Assembly: GCF_029531655.1 (NCBI RefSeq)
Contig: NZ_JANRMI010000003.1
Span: 248,001 to 312,000 of the forward strand
Source of the DNA: Bdellovibrio svalbardensis
GTDB lineage: Bacteria > Bdellovibrionota > Bdellovibrionia > Bdellovibrionales > Bdellovibrionaceae
DNA length: 64,000 bases
Direction: 5' to 3'
Shown here: positions 5,236 through 27,944 of the stretch, one piece after another
How the letters are laid out: every line of letters starts with the position of its first letter
How positions within the stretch are numbered: the first letter of the stretch is position 1
Program-made: the position numbers and the translations under genes
Notes under the pieces: model-generated
Seen by the model: the letters and a program-made list of their open reading frames with translations, nothing else
What the model was told of the DNA's origin: nothing
Database searches by the model: none

Positions 5236-7947
5236 ATGACTTTACGCCTCAGGATCTTTTTATTTAATCTCATCTCGGTCTTTCTTGCGACCTTCGTTGT
5301 TGCCATTATTGGCCTCAAGATCGTTGAATCGACCGTGGTTGATAGTACTTACGAGCGCTTAACTCAGATCCGTATTGCTAAAACCACTGCCATTGAAAAC
5401 TACTTCCGTGACCTGCAAATGGCGATCAATCTTATTGCCTCTCACGAACTGACCGACGATCTTTTGGGTTCCAACAAACCAGATGGCCAACCGGAGTTCC
5501 GCCGCCTTCTCGACAACTATGTTTTGGATTTTAATATCTACGACATGGCCTTGATCAATCCGACGGGAAGAATACTCTACACCACCCGCAAAGACATTGA
5601 AGACGGCGTTTCCATTTACAAGGGAATCAATCCGGCAAGTAAACTGAAAGACCTCTTCACCTGGGCCAACAAAGCACAAGAGGGCTCCACCCTCTTTTTG
5701 GATTTCGACAAAGATATCATCAATCCGAAGATCACAACCGGGTTTGTCGCCTCACCTATTTACCGTCACGGAAAATTTCTTGGCGCTGTCGTTTTAAAAA
5801 TTTCGATCTCAGAAATCGACCGCATCACCAGCGACAACTTTGCCTGGGCCACCCACGGCATGGGGCAAACCGGTGAGACCCTGATCTACGGCGAAGACTG
5901 GAGCTTGCGCAATACCGGTCGTTTCAGAGTTGAAAGTGGAATGAGCAATGGCTCTGAAAAAGAACCCGATGTCCTTTCCAGCAATCGTGGTGACGAAGAT
6001 ATCAAAAAAATTGAAAACCTCAGCGAGGTTCGCGAACTCGGAGTCGACTATCGCGGGCAAAAAGTCATTCGTTCGATCGGCAAGATCTATCTACCGAACG
6101 GAGAGCTTTGGTACATCCAAAGTAAAATTGATGAAAGCGAAGCATTTGCGGTTCTGGATCGCATCGCCATCGCTTCCAGCGCTGCTGCGGTCCTGATCTT
6201 TATCCTGTTCTTCTTCGCGACCTTCGCGGCCACGGGCAAAGTGGTTGAGCCGATCCAATTGCTGACAGATCGTCTTGAAAAACTGGGTACCAGCAATCTG
6301 ACTCAGAAAATCAATTATCAATCGAAAGACGAAATTGGCTTGCTGGTCACTAAATACAATCAGCTTGCCGACCGCTTGGAAACCACGACAGTTTCCAAAG
6401 AGTTCCTGGACAGCGTCATCCAATCCATCAAAGCGTTCCTCTTCATCGTCAAAGTCAGCCACCATGACGATTGGAGACAAGCTTCGTATATGATTTCCCA
6501 GGCCAATGAAGCGGCCCTCAAGCTTCTGGGTCTGACTTCTCAGCAAGTGGCTAAAATCGATCTAAAGACATTGATCCATTCTCAAGAAGATTTCAGAAAT
6601 TACACTTGGCTTCTACAAACCCGCCACAGTATTGAAGCTGAAATCGTCAATCACGAAGGTCATCGCGTCCCGATTTTGATGAATTGGGCGGCGTTACCAA
6701 ACCGCACCAGCAAAGATTTGACCTTCGTTTTTGTCTGCACAGATATCACGGATCGCATCCAGGCCGAGAACGCCTTGATTGAAGCCCGCGAACAGGCGGT
6801 AAAAGCCTCGCAGGCAAAATCAGAATTCCTGGCTCGCATGAGTCATGAGATCAGAACTCCGCTGAATGCCATCATCGGTATTACGGATATTCTGGGAGAA
6901 TCAGATTTGAAAGAGGATCAGGCTCAGCTCGTAAAAGTATGCGCCAATGCCGGTGAAAATCTTCTTTCTCTTATCAATGATATTTTGGATATTTCAAAAA
7001 TTGAAGCGCGTGAAGTTCGACTTGAGAAAATTGCTTTTGACCTCGAAGCGACGACAAAAAATATTTGCGATATCCTAAAACAAAAAGCGAATGAGAAAAA
7101 TCTCAACTTCTCGTTAAAAGTAAATCTGGGCAGTACGGCTTCTCACATGGTGATCGGTGATCCGACTCGCCTTCGTCAGATTCTTTTCAACCTTATCGGT
7201 AATGCGATCAAATTTACCCAAGTGGGAGAAATTTCCATCACCGTGGATTTTGAAAATGGTGACGGCAAATTTGTCCGTTTCGCCATTCATGATACCGGAA
7301 CAGGCATCCCCGAAGACAAACAGCACTTGTTGTTTCAAAATTTCGTCCAAGCAGACAGTTCTATCACCCGCAAATTTGGCGGCAGCGGCTTAGGACTGAC
7401 CATTTCCAAGAATCTCGTGGAACTGATGGGCGGCCGCATCTGGTTCACCAGCAAAGAGAACAAAGGAAGCACCTTCTTCTTCACGATTCCCTATGTGGCG
7501 ACCGAAGCCGCTGAAGTGGCACGCATCTACGAAGCACCTCCGGAGCCGACAGTTTCCGAAAAAGAAATTGGCCGAAATGCACGCATCCTTGTGGTGGACG
7601 ACACTGAAGACAATCGCTTTTTGCTCCTCACTTACCTTAAGAAATATCCGTTTGATGTCGTCCAGGCAGAAAATGGACAAATTGCCGTGGATCGAGCTAC
7701 ACAAGAAAATTTTGACCTTATCCTCATGGACATTCAAATGCCGGTGATGGATGGCTACGTCGCAACTCAAATGATTCGCGCATGGGAAAAGAAGCACAAT
7801 AAGAAAAGCATTCCTATTATAGCGGTCAGCGCAAATGCGATGGCAGAAGATGTTCAAAAATCTTTGGAAGCTGGCTGCACTGAGCACCTCACAAAACCGG
7901 TTAAAAAAACGGCTTTGTTAGAAATGGTGCAACGTTATACGATCTAG
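5236..7947 (+). CDS. membrane hybrid histidine kinase (Cache-like sensor, HAMP, PAS, kinase, receiver), 903 aa
   Basis: This is a sensor kinase that relays phosphate from its own kinase core to an attached receiver. Order: TM1 (about 7-29), a 280-residue periplasmic region resembling a Cache sensor, TM2 (about 310-333), HAMP, PAS-like region (about 395-510), HisKA with His537 in MSHEIRTPLN, HATPase with NAIKFT, DTGTGIPED and GGSGLGLTIS, and a C-terminal receiver with Asp832 in LMDIQMPVMDG and the KP lysine. The ATG at 5236 was chosen since it directly precedes TM1; the frame is open 405 bp further upstream but that part has no signal or homology. A weak AGGA is the only ribosome site. The signal sensed is unknown. 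Confidence 0.92.
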   Translation: MTLRLRIFLFNLISVFLATFVVAIIGLKIVESTVVDSTYERLTQIRIAKTTAIENYFRDLQMAINLIASHELTDDLLGSNKPDGQPEFRRLLDNYVLDFNIYDMALINPTGRILYTTRKDIEDGVSIYKGINPASKLKDLFTWANKAQEGSTLFLDFDKDIINPKITTGFVASPIYRHGKFLGAVVLKISISEIDRITSDNFAWATHGMGQTGETLIYGEDWSLRNTGRFRVESGMSNGSEKEPDVLSSNRGDEDIKKIENLSEVRELGVDYRGQKVIRSIGKIYLPNGELWYIQSKIDESEAFAVLDRIAIASSAAAVLIFILFFFATFAATGKVVEPIQLLTDRLEKLGTSNLTQKINYQSKDEIGLLVTKYNQLADRLETTTVSKEFLDSVIQSIKAFLFIVKVSHHDDWRQASYMISQANEAALKLLGLTSQQVAKIDLKTLIHSQEDFRNYTWLLQTRHSIEAEIVNHEGHRVPILMNWAALPNRTSKDLTFVFVCTDITDRIQAENALIEAREQAVKASQAKSEFLARMSHEIRTPLNAIIGITDILGESDLKEDQAQLVKVCANAGENLLSLINDILDISKIEAREVRLEKIAFDLEATTKNICDILKQKANEKNLNFSLKVNLGSTASHMVIGDPTRLRQILFNLIGNAIKFTQVGEISITVDFENGDGKFVRFAIHDTGTGIPEDKQHLLFQNFVQADSSITRKFGGSGLGLTISKNLVELMGGRIWFTSKENKGSTFFFTIPYVATEAAEVARIYEAPPEPTVSEKEIGRNARILVVDDTEDNRFLLLTYLKKYPFDVVQAENGQIAVDRATQENFDLILMDIQMPVMDGYVATQMIRAWEKKHNKKSIPIIAVSANAMAEDVQKSLEAGCTEHLTKPVKKTALLEMVQRYTI

Positions 7948-20915: not shown

Positions 20916-21878
20916 TTAGTAACAAGTCAAAACACTATTCTTGTCGATGCAGACAGTTTGTGAAATCCCATCAACTCCTGGTTGTCCTTTGTCACCAGGC
21001 TCTCCCTCGGGCCCACGGTTTTTTTCGTTCCCCAAACTCAAGACAAAACCTCCGCAACTGAAGGAAGCACTGCCTGAGCGTCCATTTTCACCGCCCTCGC
21101 CGCCTTGACCACCCTCACCCCGCTCTCCACCACGACCGGGTTTGCGTTGAATGGAATATGTAAAGCCTTGATCATTTTTTATTTTCAACTCAAGAGTTCC
21201 AGAATCACCACCGTTTTTTCCATCTTGACCGGGATGACCTTTTTTCCCTTGGCCACCAATGCCACCCCCCGTTGCTCTTCTATTGCAAATTCCATTCGAA
21301 CCAAAAGCATCACCATCTGTTCCTGGAGAACCTTCGCTTCCCTTCATTGAAGGATCCGGATTGGCTCCCTTCAAACCCTTTCCCCCTCTTTCCCCACGAA
21401 GGACAAGATTCAATACCCCCTCAGCTCGTTCGACATCAATAAGGATATGACCGCCGGCCCGTCCCACCTTATTCGGTTCAGCTGTTTGATCTTCAGAAAA
21501 TGTCGTGATCAATCCCGCAGAGCTGAGATCCGCAACATGCAGCCTGATATTATTGCCTAAAGTATAAAGCACACCCCGTTCTGTGATCGTGAGTCGATCA
21601 AATTGAAATTCAAAATCTTGCTTGGTCAGACTTTCATTTTTTGCCAAAGACTCCTTCAGAGGCTCTTTACCGGACTCCTTTTGTGCAGCTGCAAGATCTT
21701 GAGCGTTGAGGATCTGCCCCGCATAGACATACATAGGTTCATCAATCACCAGGTCCCCGAATTTTTGTACGGCCACCATCGGCGCGGGCTCCTCTGTTTT
21801 TTTGTTATCCCGAACTTCCACGCAGGCGCACAGTTGGGTCATTGCGAACAATATAGATAGGGTCCATTTTGCTTTCAT
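20916..21878 (-). CDS. lipoprotein with collagen-like Gly-rich region
   Basis: The 320-aa product has a lipoprotein signal (TQLCAC, Cys19), a beta-rich domain to about residue 165, then glycine-rich segments with Gly-X-Y periodicity: RGERGGKGLKG, GSEGSPGTDGD, GIGGQGKKGHPGQDGKNGG, GRGGERGEGGQGGEGG and PEGEPGDKGQPG. These are interrupted, so a continuous collagen triple helix is not certain; a similar pattern occurs in other surface lipoproteins of this phylum. Two pairs of cysteines lie near the C-terminus. Likely exposed in the outer membrane; function unknown. Confidence 0.8.
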   Translation of the reverse strand: MKAKWTLSILFAMTQLCACVEVRDNKKTEEPAPMVAVQKFGDLVIDEPMYVYAGQILNAQDLAAAQKESGKEPLKESLAKNESLTKQDFEFQFDRLTITERGVLYTLGNNIRLHVADLSSAGLITTFSEDQTAEPNKVGRAGGHILIDVERAEGVLNLVLRGERGGKGLKGANPDPSMKGSEGSPGTDGDAFGSNGICNRRATGGGIGGQGKKGHPGQDGKNGGDSGTLELKIKNDQGFTYSIQRKPGRGGERGEGGQGGEGGENGRSGSASFSCGGFVLSLGNEKNRGPEGEPGDKGQPGVDGISQTVCIDKNSVLTCY

Positions 21879-23769: not shown

Positions 23770-25335
23770 TTAGTACAAGTTTTGGTTTCGGTACTGCATA
23801 AGATACGCAGAAAGCATATCTGCTTTAAGTACCTCATCTGCCACACCAATTTCAATTGCTTTTTGTGGACCGAATGGAAACTGAGCTTCTTCGGGATGCT
23901 GCACGACAGTGGCTCCTCCCATTTTTTGCACATCGATCAAACCGTCCACCCCATCAGAACCGAATCCACCCAATAACACTGCAAAAACTCCCTTATTAAA
24001 AGAAGCCGCCGCCGACTGAAAGAGGACATTGCTGGAAGGAAGCTGCGAAGCCACGGGCGTTCCTTTGGCGATCTTCAAAACCGGTCCCTGAGGCCCGACA
24101 GCGACACGACCATGATGTTCGGCCGGAATAAAATAGACATGACCCATACGTAAAAAATCACCATCTTTAGCAACCACTGGGGTCACTTTCGAAGATGTTT
24201 TCAATTTACCAATGTATGCGGTCACGAAATTGGCAACCGTACTGCACGAAACTACAACCGGTGGAGTATCCGCAGCCAAGCCTTTTACAAGCTTCTCTAA
24301 AGCGTCGGCACTGCCCGCATTACCACCGACCACCACCACTTTCAGTTCCGCAGCTCTTTTACCTGCGGGTTTGGCTGGTAATGCAGATTTAATTTCCATG
24401 ACAGCGGGTGCTTCTTTAATTTTTTTAAGGATATTCACAGAAGCAGCCGCACGCACTTTATCAACGAGCATGCCTGCAAGGTCTTTTAAAACCGCTGGGT
24501 CAAACTGAGAAGGCTTATGCACAAATTCGACCGCCCCCAGCTCCAAAGATTTCAAGGCGGCATCGCCCGTACTTGCAAGAGATGAAACCATCACCACTGG
24601 AATCGGATGATGCTTCATAATCTTTTCCAAGAACATCACACCTGACATCTTTGGCATCTCAATATCCAAGGTCATTACATCAGGTTTCTTATTCAAAATA
24701 AGTTCGCGGGCCTGGTAAGCGTCGGCAGCAGCACCGACAACCTCAAGTCCACTCTTGGTAAAAATATTGGTAAAAAGAGTTCTGACCGTCGCAGAGTCAT
24801 CCACGACCAACACTTTAATATTTTTTGCGACATTGAGGGGCTTGAATCCCGAAACGTCCACTGGCCGCTGTTCAGAGCCCGCATTGTCTTTAGAAGAATT
24901 ATGTAAAACTTCGAAAGTGGCTGTATTTAATTTGATAGTGCGTGCATGCTCGCCCGCCAAATTCTTTTCAATGATTGGTATATTGAGTTCGCGCAGCATT
25001 TTTTCCGCAAGTTCAATATTGCGAACACCGACACCATTTCCCAAAGAAGAAACGCTGATAACATTCGCACCACCGTAGATTTTCGCTTGAAGCTTGCTGC
25101 GATTGGCACCCAGACGAACACATTCATCCACTAGTGCCGGAATGGCAAAGGCCCCATAACGAGTATTCAAAACTTCGTTGCCCATGCCCTCTGCCAACAG
25201 GTAATGATTCAAACCACCAATGCGAGTTGTAGGGTCATAAATTGCCACTGCAACACAGGAGCCCAACAGAGTTGAGATGATCGTTTCCTCTTTAAAGGCT
25301 GCCATCTTACCAGGAAACAAATAATGGGAGTTCAC
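23770..25335 (-). CDS. CheD-receiver-CheB fusion with degenerate esterase domain
   Basis: Three chemotaxis domains are joined in 521 aa. Residues 1-160 are CheD, the chemoreceptor glutamine deamidase, with Cys27 in LLGSCVAV, His44 in GGLNHYLL and Thr22, so it looks active. Residues about 170-290 are a receiver with the VVDD acidic pair, phospho-site Asp224 in LDIEMPKMSG and Lys in VHKP. Residues about 330-521 align with CheB methylesterase, but the catalytic serine of GASTGG is Asn339 (VGGNAGS) and the catalytic histidine of QHMP is Ser365; only Asp461 (GFGSDG) remains. Its start overlaps the cheW stop by ATGA. Function inferred: a phosphorylation-gated deamidase. Confidence 0.9.
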   Translation of the reverse strand: MNSHYLFPGKMAAFKEETIISTLLGSCVAVAIYDPTTRIGGLNHYLLAEGMGNEVLNTRYGAFAIPALVDECVRLGANRSKLQAKIYGGANVISVSSLGNGVGVRNIELAEKMLRELNIPIIEKNLAGEHARTIKLNTATFEVLHNSSKDNAGSEQRPVDVSGFKPLNVAKNIKVLVVDDSATVRTLFTNIFTKSGLEVVGAAADAYQARELILNKKPDVMTLDIEMPKMSGVMFLEKIMKHHPIPVVMVSSLASTGDAALKSLELGAVEFVHKPSQFDPAVLKDLAGMLVDKVRAAASVNILKKIKEAPAVMEIKSALPAKPAGKRAAELKVVVVGGNAGSADALEKLVKGLAADTPPVVVSCSTVANFVTAYIGKLKTSSKVTPVVAKDGDFLRMGHVYFIPAEHHGRVAVGPQGPVLKIAKGTPVASQLPSSNVLFQSAAASFNKGVFAVLLGGFGSDGVDGLIDVQKMGGATVVQHPEEAQFPFGPQKAIEIGVADEVLKADMLSAYLMQYRNQNLY

Positions 25336-26099
25336 GCCGCCACCAATCTTTCGATATCCAAGACCATGACACTGCGCTGGTCTTTAATGAAAAAGTTACG
25401 AATGAAAGGTACTGAAATTATCACTGAACTGGATTCAATACTTTGCAAATCTTTATCACAAACACTCATAAGTTCATCTGTCTCTGCAACCTGCAACGAA
25501 AAGCGCGTCCCCTCAAATTCACAGATCACATAGAGGAACTGAGTCTTCTCATTCTTTTGAAAGCCATAGTCCTGCAAACTAACTACAGGAAGAGCATCTC
25601 CTCTGAATGGAATAACCCCAAGCAAGCCTTCGCGCTTTTCAGGCAAAGGATACAACGGGAGTGCACCGCTAATCTCGACGACATATTTAATGGGAACCAC
25701 AAATTCCTGGCCTGCCACCTTACAACGAAGATAGAGACTTTCCCCCTGCAACTCGGCAGTTAAAGCAAACTGCACCCCATATTCAGGAGAATCTTTTTTT
25801 GTCTCTTGGAGGTTATCCACATACTTCTTCGCAGTACGAAGAGCCTGAACAAGATCCTCTGGCGTGGCAAAAACATCGAGCTTATCTAAAAAGCCCTGAA
25901 ACCATGCCGACAGATATTCAAATTCATTACTTTTTGCATCGACAATCCAATTTTGACACTGCTCGCGGATTTCAGCGCGAACTCGTTTCAATGTGGAGTC
26001 ATCCAGAAGATCAGCAAACTTTTCCAGCTCTGCATTCAAGCTGGTTAAATAATAACCCTTGAGTTCCGCCGTAAAGTCATCACCGAAGAAATCGCTCAT
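25332..26099 (-). CDS. cheW: CheW-domain adaptor with helical N-terminal extension
   Basis: The C-terminal part (about residues 105-255) is a CheW/SH3-like fold that couples receptors to CheA, with VVPIKYVVEISG, LLGVIPFRGDALPVVSL and VMVLDIERL. About 100 extra residues at the N-terminus are predicted helical and rich in charged residues; they are not present in ordinary CheW (about 160 aa). The gene is coupled by ATGA overlaps to cheA upstream and to the cheD/cheB fusion downstream. Confidence 0.88.
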   Translation of the reverse strand: MSDFFGDDFTAELKGYYLTSLNAELEKFADLLDDSTLKRVRAEIREQCQNWIVDAKSNEFEYLSAWFQGFLDKLDVFATPEDLVQALRTAKKYVDNLQETKKDSPEYGVQFALTAELQGESLYLRCKVAGQEFVVPIKYVVEISGALPLYPLPEKREGLLGVIPFRGDALPVVSLQDYGFQKNEKTQFLYVICEFEGTRFSLQVAETDELMSVCDKDLQSIESSSVIISVPFIRNFFIKDQRSVMVLDIERLVAA

Positions 26100-27829
26100 G
26101 CCGCCTCCGCCTGATGATTCGCAGCTATCACCGCAAGTAGAAGTTCTGGGTCAACAATATAGGTGACCTTCTCATCTGCAAGGATGGAAATTCCCTTAAA
26201 ACCTTTTTGTTGATTGATAATTTTTCCGAAGCTTTTAACAACCAAATCCGTCTGCCCGTCGATTTTATCGACCAGCAAAGCAAAGGTAGCCTCTTTACAG
26301 CGGACAAAAACTGCTGATGAAGATTTCACTTTTTCGTCTTGCTCATAAACTGACAGATTTAACATCTCATGATAGTTCAGAAGTGGAACCGTCATTCCGC
26401 CGTACTGACAATAACGTAAATGATTAACGGTCGTAACATGCAGCTGATCACAAGAGGTGATATGGGAAACTGACATCAAAGGCACAGCCAATTGATAGTC
26501 ACTCCAGGTGCATAAAAGTGCAGACTCCACCATGATATGCTGAGGAACTGGAATTTCCAGATGGAAAGAGGTCCCCTGCCCCAAGGTGGTTTCGATATGA
26601 ATCTTACCTTCATAAGAGTCCACAGTATTTTGTACGACATCCATCCCCACGCCTCGGCCAGAGATGGTTGTAATTTTATCTTTCGTCGAAAAGCCTGCGT
26701 TGAAGATGAACCGATAGACTTGCTCATCCGTTAAAGGCACCGCTTCCTCTTCGGTCAACAGGCCGGTGCTTAAAGCGCGCTGAAGAATGCGCTCTCGATT
26801 CAGACCAACACCGTCATCTTTAAATATTAAATGAATGATTCCATTTTTATCGCTGATTTCAAGGCTGAGTTGTCCAATCGAAGGTTTCCCTGAAACTGTT
26901 CTTTCAAATTGATCCTCGATACCATGATCAATGGAATTTCGCGCCAAATGCACCACGCAGTCAGATAGTTCTTTAGCCAAAGATTTATCCAACATCAGAT
27001 CCATACCATGCATTTCAAAGTGAACTTGCTTGTTAAGCTCTGTCGCTGCTTGACGAATTAAAACCGGAATACCCTGGAAGCTCTCTTCAGCGCGTTCCTT
27101 ACGAACGCCTTGAATTTGACCTTGAAATTGATCGCAAATCTTCGTCAGGTTGTGAGAGAAATCATTTTGACGACGTTCAAACAATTCCGGCTGGGTACGG
27201 AAGTTCACTGTTTGATTCATCATATTGAAGAAATTTTTTAGAACCAAAAGCTCGCCAGAAATTTTCAGCATCTCATTGAGCTGCTTCATCGAAAGCCAAA
27301 CACCTTGCTCATCATCAGAATGCGAAGCAGCCCTCTTAGGCGGCGCAGCTTTGCGTGGCGTGGGTCTTTGTCCGGAGAATTGAAAGCTTCCATAACGAGT
27401 GATGGTCTCAATCGCCTCACTCAACTCTTCCGGATACACTTCGCGTTTTTCACGAAGGGCTTCCGCCAGAACTTTAAGAAGACGGGAACTTTGCAAAAAC
27501 AGATCTACACATTCACGAGTGACGGATCTTTGCTCTTGCTTGATGCGATTTAAAAGCGCTTCAAATTCATGCGACAAGGAACCAAGTAGCTGTCCCCCGG
27601 GGACAGCCCCGACACTGCCCTTGAGAGTGTGGACTTTTCTAAAGATCAGATTAATTTGGTCCACGTCATCAGGATTTTCCTCAAGCTTGAGAATCTGCTC
27701 TTCAAGGTTTTCCAAAATCTCTTTGGACTCTTCAAAAAAGACAGCAGAGACCTGTTCGACTTGTTCAAAGTCGATCAGAAACATCTCATCGAGCTGCGCT
27801 TGAGAATTGTTGTTTTGCTCGTCTGACAT
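26096..27829 (-). CDS. cheA: chemotaxis histidine kinase CheA
   Basis: A soluble kinase of 577 aa. The Hpt domain holds phospho-site His67 in RKVHTLKGSVG. A linker with basic APPKRAA replaces a clear P2 domain. The dimerisation helices, then ATP-binding N box LARNSIDHGIE, G1 DDGVGLN, F box NAGFSTKD and G2 SGRGVGMDVV, and a C-terminal CheW-like domain follow. All kinase motifs look intact. The ATG at 27829 was chosen; a TTG 24 bases upstream is also open. First gene of the operon cheA-cheW-cheD/cheB. No receptor, CheR or separate CheY gene is in the window. Confidence 0.93.
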   Translation of the reverse strand: MSDEQNNNSQAQLDEMFLIDFEQVEQVSAVFFEESKEILENLEEQILKLEENPDDVDQINLIFRKVHTLKGSVGAVPGGQLLGSLSHEFEALLNRIKQEQRSVTRECVDLFLQSSRLLKVLAEALREKREVYPEELSEAIETITRYGSFQFSGQRPTPRKAAPPKRAASHSDDEQGVWLSMKQLNEMLKISGELLVLKNFFNMMNQTVNFRTQPELFERRQNDFSHNLTKICDQFQGQIQGVRKERAEESFQGIPVLIRQAATELNKQVHFEMHGMDLMLDKSLAKELSDCVVHLARNSIDHGIEDQFERTVSGKPSIGQLSLEISDKNGIIHLIFKDDGVGLNRERILQRALSTGLLTEEEAVPLTDEQVYRFIFNAGFSTKDKITTISGRGVGMDVVQNTVDSYEGKIHIETTLGQGTSFHLEIPVPQHIMVESALLCTWSDYQLAVPLMSVSHITSCDQLHVTTVNHLRYCQYGGMTVPLLNYHEMLNLSVYEQDEKVKSSSAVFVRCKEATFALLVDKIDGQTDLVVKSFGKIINQQKGFKGISILADEKVTYIVDPELLLAVIAANHQAEAA

Positions 27830-27944
27830 ATTCTTGAAGATCTCGCTTTTCAATGACGTGAAGGTTCAAGAATTTATCGGATTTTCGCGGATTTAAGTTA
27901 ATTCCTTAGGAGCCAATAAGGACTAGATTTTTATGAGAAAATTA

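Follow-up and report, generated by a model that had tools for sequence, protein, structure and literature searches.

The protein encoded on the minus strand at positions 23770..25335 of the window (the whole 64,000-nt stretch of Bdellovibrio svalbardensis DNA that was analyzed) joins a CheD deamidase domain and a receiver domain, both with intact active-site residues, to a CheB-like domain that has lost the catalytic Ser and His of the methylesterase (pseudo-CheB). Residue comparisons strongly support the prediction that pseudo-CheB would be unable to cleave methyl esters, and comparisons across genomes strongly support the view that this dead type represents a conserved subfamily with a single ancient origin, not a lone decayed gene. 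The best explanation, to which we would give an even chance, is that the protein is a phosphorylation-controlled CheD, with pseudo-CheB acting as a docking or regulatory part.

Domain layout and active-site residues

The gene encodes 521 aa, from a GTG start at 25335 to a stop codon at 23770 that is included in the interval; the initial annotation had given the same coordinates, to which the minus strand is added here. Three domains are recognized by Pfam on this strand: CheD (PF03975; residues 2-147, 24895..25332) with 80 bits against a cut-off of 25, the receiver (Response_reg, PF00072; residues 172-285, 24481..24822) with 85.5 bits, and pseudo-CheB (CheB_methylest, PF01339; residues 330-512, 23800..24348) with 111 bits against a cut-off of 24. 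Among solved structures, the top sequence match was full-length Salmonella CheB (1a2o), covering residues 172-511, and residues 9-145 could be aligned with Thermotoga maritima CheD (2f9z_C). In the AlphaFold model (mean pLDDT 83.7), the receiver together with pseudo-CheB matched 1a2o with a Z score of 39.2 over 334 residues, and the predicted fold of residues 170-521 matched both 1a2o and the CheB of P. atrosepticum (6ymz) with Z scores of 39-40 and an rmsd of 3.3. Pseudo-CheB was similar to 1chd (Z 30.0, rmsd 2.2, 195 residues) and 3sft (Z 29.4), and the CheD part to 2f9z_C (Z 23.9, rmsd 2.0, 148 residues). In this model the receiver packs on pseudo-CheB as it does in CheB, which may reflect what AlphaFold learned from CheB itself.

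The catalytic residues of CheD (Thr22, Cys27, and His44) are intact in the alignment to 2f9z_C and kept in all 23 CheD-bearing dead-type sequences, and those of the receiver (the acidic pair D179/D180, the phospho-acceptor D224 with its codon at 24664-24666, and K274) are kept in every dead-type sequence that has a receiver. Receiver residue S252 is also present in the fusion and is replaced by Q in G273, a member from outside the class. In pseudo-CheB, alignment to 1a2o placed Asn339 (codon 24319..24321) at the position of the catalytic Ser and Ser365 (codon 24241..24243) at that of the catalytic His, leaving Asp461 (codon 23953..23955) as the sole residue of the triad. The assignments in CheD and pseudo-CheB, and those of the acidic pair, Asp224, and the Lys of the receiver, had been made in the initial annotation and were borne out. 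Asn339 and Asp461 are found in 24/24 orthologs, and His at position 365 in 0/24. Chance or an assembly error was rejected as the cause of Asn339, since the same Asn occurs in many genomes.

A Ser-His-Asp triad located elsewhere in the domain, the observation that the initial annotation had set against its own claim, was examined by alignment, and no such triad was found. A domain-specific conserved set cannot be assembled from the 24 orthologs, because the most conserved His column (408) is not invariant (His in 21 of 24 sequences, N or Q in the others) and the two invariant serines, Ser434 and Ser441, also occur as Ser (or Ala at 434) in active CheBs. Residues fixed within the dead clade include N339, F458, and P481. 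The invariance of Asn339 and Asp461, with such class-specific neighbors, might suggest that pseudo-CheB has gained a new chemistry based on these two residues; however, neither a nucleophile nor a general base is conserved alongside them, and Asp461 belongs to a GxDG turn that is common to active CheBs and may be structural, which makes this reading highly improbable.

Pseudo-CheB received 246 bits from the NCBIfam CheB subfamily model, below the cut-off of 293, whereas the canonical CheB of the same genome received 425 bits and an active trifusion 377 bits. Homology makes the third domain a member of the CheB superfamily, yet judged by its sequence it fails both the catalytic definition and the NCBIfam cut-off for CheB. 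The CheD part was also below the cut-off of the NCBIfam CheD equivalog models (best score 121 bits, cut-off 223); these models look lineage-specific, because an active trifusion fails them as well. Compared with the CheB methylesterases 1a2o and 6ymz, with which it has the receiver and the CheB fold in common, the fusion lacks the Ser and His of the triad, has an altered pocket (F458, P481), and carries CheD in front. Compared with the CheD deamidases (2f9z_C and Bacillus subtilis CheD), whose fold and Thr-Cys-His residues it possesses, its CheD is joined to a receiver and pseudo-CheB, lacks a CheC-linked Met-Phe pair, and occurs in a genome where no classical CheC was found.

Distribution, origin and selective constraint

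All 66 genomes of the family Bdellovibrionaceae were searched, and the survey was extended to 369 genomes of the phylum Bdellovibrionota. The full-length dead fusion was detected in 20 Bdellovibrio genomes and in three other genomes (G034, G065, and G002), and a further copy (G020) is split over two contigs. Across the phylum, the dead-CheB profile produced 29 matches (227-302 bits) in 29 of the 369 genomes, the next match being an intact CheB with 131 bits. Members beyond the family were found in other families of the order (G209, G216, G217, and G265) and in another family outside the class (G273). All 29 dead-type domains are located in CheD proteins, comprising 27 complete frames, the split G020 copy, and a fusion in G209 that is truncated at the contig end and retains part of CheD. 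Residue-by-residue reading of 28 of the 29 domains showed Asn in place of the Ser in each, G020 being placed by score only. The dead-type protein of G217 consists of CheD and pseudo-CheB with no receiver.

The other 23 CheD-REC-CheB fusions in the phylum retain Ser, His, and Asp. These trifusions (e.g., in G036, G038, G060, and G107) have the same domain order and a similar length but differ from the dead type in their triad, in the position of their REC-CheB parts in a separate clade, and in the linker between CheD and the receiver, which contains a VDxSG motif in the dead clade only (PVDVSGFKP, residues 158-166, 24838..24864 on the minus strand). In a tree built without the triad columns and their neighbors, a branch with 100/100 support set all dead REC-CheBs apart from the others; some of the dead members are on long branches. 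Other CheD architectures were also observed, including a CheD-CheR fusion in G112 (deamidase joined to methyltransferase; L116:3086-4300), a two-domain CheD-REC protein without CheB in G121 (L127:3632-4561), and receiver-less CheD-CheB fusions in L063 (about 6854-7927) and L064 (about 6214-7281), which are closer to intact CheB than to the dead one.

A search of genome contigs with the single protein gave few matches beyond Bdellovibrio; the ortholog in G003 is located at 537926-539482. Among the ten matches listed from the plasmid collection, no annotated fusion was present outside Bdellovibrio (according to annotation, without alignment), and adjacent cheD and cheB genes occur in other phyla. 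No match in phage records spanned most of the fusion protein. Plasmid pBdHAGR1 (AP029177.1; L194) carries cheW and a fusion gene that ends just past the GGNAGS motif (5240-7053), with IS21 genes nearby and no cheA match within the stretch.

At the same chromosomal place, standalone CheDs were found in two genomes of the same genus (G011 and G004) and in another genus (g19), where the locus lacks cheA, cheW, and the REC-CheB part. In the CheD tree, dead fusions lie on both sides of these standalone CheDs with modest support; because of this arrangement, loss of the remaining parts appears to be the simpler reading, and a standalone CheD as the ancestor of the fusion is the possible but less simple one. 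G003 has a second CheD near 2.73 Mb. The predation proteome of strain HD100 names a CheD, Bd2829 (PMC12546842), which, from its position only, probably corresponds to this second, standalone CheD and not to the fusion.

We also examined the selective constraint on each part of the gene. Based on 21 genes of Bdellovibrio and G034, the median dN/dS was 0.076 for CheD, 0.029 for the receiver, 0.058 for pseudo-CheB, and about 0.2 for the linkers; many dS values were saturated, so that these ratios are approximate, and close pairs agree with them. Pseudo-CheB is under purifying selection of the same strength as CheD. Mean identity across the nine dead-type lineages was 45% for CheD, 66% for the receiver, and 38% for pseudo-CheB, compared with 42%, 53%, and 61% for the corresponding domains (the last being CheB) of active trifusions. 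Pseudo-CheB thus has more freedom than a working CheB but remains constrained, and the tightest constraint is on the receiver. The reading in which the CheB part is a nonfunctional remnant in decay could draw on the fact that it has diverged more than the other domains of the dead clade and that the plasmid copy lacks most of it, but the dN/dS of pseudo-CheB, as well as its retention across several families and beyond the order, contradicts this reading; it was rejected on the former ground and is, in our estimate, very unlikely indeed.

Operon and chemotaxis gene context

The fusion gene is the third of a cheA-cheW-fusion operon on the minus strand, in which each overlap between genes is 4 bases long. 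The first gene (26096..27853) encodes a CheA with a P1 domain, an ATPase domain, and a CheW-like domain; the P1 His (HTLKG) and the ATPase motifs are kept, and neither P2 nor a receiver is present. In G002 and G065, the relatives of this CheA carry a receiver at the N-terminus. The second gene (25332..26099), which overlaps cheA by ATGA and the fusion gene by GTGA, encodes a CheW with an N-terminal P1/Hpt-like domain in which the phospho-His is missing. This domain is helical, and its best structural matches other than CheW were CheA P1 domains (1i5n and 3kyj), with a Z score of about 12.3 over 114 residues; bundles of helices can reach scores close to this one simply by being arranged alike. 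The phospho-His position is occupied by Q, R, D, or similar residues in Bdellovibrio and G034 and by His in G002 and G065, whose homologous domains are recognized as Hpt by Pfam. From these residues, the operon is predicted to hold two degenerate catalytic domains, namely pseudo-CheB and the P1-like domain of CheW. No cheR, cheY, or active cheB was found in the operon, where the only receiver is that of the fusion. Beside the operon, at 20916-21878 of the window, lies the gene of a predicted lipoprotein whose sequence includes a collagen-like, glycine-rich stretch (GPEGEPGDKGQPG and similar), and this placement is kept in many relatives.

The main chemotaxis cluster is located elsewhere in the genome and has its own CheA, CheR, and intact CheB. 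No classical CheC was found: the PF04509 matches in the genome are a 165-aa CheX (75 bits for PF13690) and a 315-aa FliM-sized frame only. In the CheD of the fusion, Val92-Ile93 takes the place of the Met-Phe pair, which has been linked to CheC binding (PMC3513319). About 8 of the genome's 21 receptors (L133-L153) end in a common tail such as VGTTDGF-COOH, as do 3 of 8 in G011; this shared tail is possibly a tether for adaptation enzymes.

The presence of an intact CheB in this genome bears on a reading in which pseudo-CheB is mainly a competitor: by binding the methylation helices of receptors it would keep the true CheB away from them, and the fusion would antagonize demethylation while its CheD modifies neighboring sites. 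Consistent with this, the gene next after the dead fusion encodes an intact REC-CheB in six of the nine dead-type lineages (G002, G065, G209, G216, G217, and G273), and the pocket has its own fixed residues (those listed above), unlike what random decay would leave. On the other hand, no cheB adjoins the fusion in Bdellovibrio itself or in G265 (nor in G034), and the low identity of pseudo-CheB relative to the CheB of active trifusions argues against a strictly conserved helix-binding surface. We regard such a competitor as unlikely.

Proposed control of CheD and possible role of pseudo-CheB

The initial annotation had proposed that phosphorylation by CheA gates deamidation by CheD, with the dead esterase domain as a scaffold. 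The first part of this proposal, control of CheD by the receiver, fits our results, because the only receiver of the operon, which is also the most conserved domain, resides in the fusion, because the VDxSG linker motif is exclusive to the dead clade, and because CheD alone survives at the locus in relatives and no classical CheC was found. The second part, that the output is deamidation, is less secure. A simple-pattern count of the core methylation sites in the 21 receptors gave 119 E and 7 Q, leaving few obvious substrates for deamidation and favoring binding or non-core sites. Moreover, the CheD of B. subtilis increases CheA activation and binds to receptors, with CheY-P acting via CheC, and this binding matters more than the deamidase activity of CheD, which is minor (PMC3513319). 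That the dead CheB domain serves as a scaffold is a guess.

A narrower form of the best explanation holds that CheD works through binding to receptors (kinase activation) instead of deamidating them, with the phosphorylated receiver releasing or recruiting it in the manner of CheC and CheY-P in B. subtilis. The low number of Gln residues at the core sites, the failure to find a classical CheC, and the B. subtilis variant CheD-F102E, which deamidates McpA yet fails in chemotaxis (PMC3513319), are in its favor, whereas no member has lost the catalytic Thr, Cys, or His of CheD, suggesting that catalysis still matters, and many receptors have an EQ pair elsewhere, at about +84 relative to the hairpin-tip motif. 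The chance of this narrower form seems somewhat short of even.

For a CheD controlled by phosphorylation, the following sequence of events may be envisaged. The CheA of the operon would pass phosphate to Asp224 of the receiver, whose packing against pseudo-CheB would be altered; via the conserved VDxSG linker, the phosphorylated state would then change the engagement of CheD with chemoreceptors, and the output would be the action of CheD on receptors, either deamidation of a few Gln sites or binding that alters CheA activity. Pseudo-CheB would be kept as the docking partner of the receiver and possibly also as a receptor-binding module. The AlphaFold model leaves the packing of CheD on the receiver without known confidence, which counts against this explanation, and the receiver-less member in G217 indicates that phosphorylation control is not obligatory. 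More tentatively, the operon could constitute a minimal kinase-to-CheD branch, built around two pseudo-domains, in which CheA has the receiver of the fusion as its only target within the operon and thereby controls CheD, the pseudo-P1 domain of CheW tethers this receiver to the receptor array without accepting phosphate, and the ancient Asn-type pseudo-methylesterase serves to hold either the receiver or the receptor; this reading is rather unlikely.

The proposed control of CheD-receptor engagement by a phospho-signal resembles the CheC/CheD/CheY-P system of B. subtilis, with the difference that the receiver is provided in cis, where it would substitute for CheC and CheY-P acting on CheD, and that CheX, not CheC, was identified. 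A physical interaction between CheB and CheD has been reported in Halobacterium (PMC3579733) and offers, by analogy, a plausible route to such fusions. In the openly accessible literature that was searched, nothing relevant was found on CheD-CheB fusions or degenerate CheB triads, nor was any system of this kind, in agreement with the initial annotation.

Automatic annotation of such proteins may mislead, as Pfam reports a CheB methylesterase well over its cut-off and the NCBIfam cut-off rejects pseudo-CheB. The fusion defines a conserved pseudo-methylesterase subfamily. It also bears on the control of CheD in bacteria that have no CheC: here a receiver is wired directly to CheD, and the esterase that such receivers usually control has been dropped. 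Therefore, this single polypeptide would be well suited for studying the control of CheD by phosphorylation.
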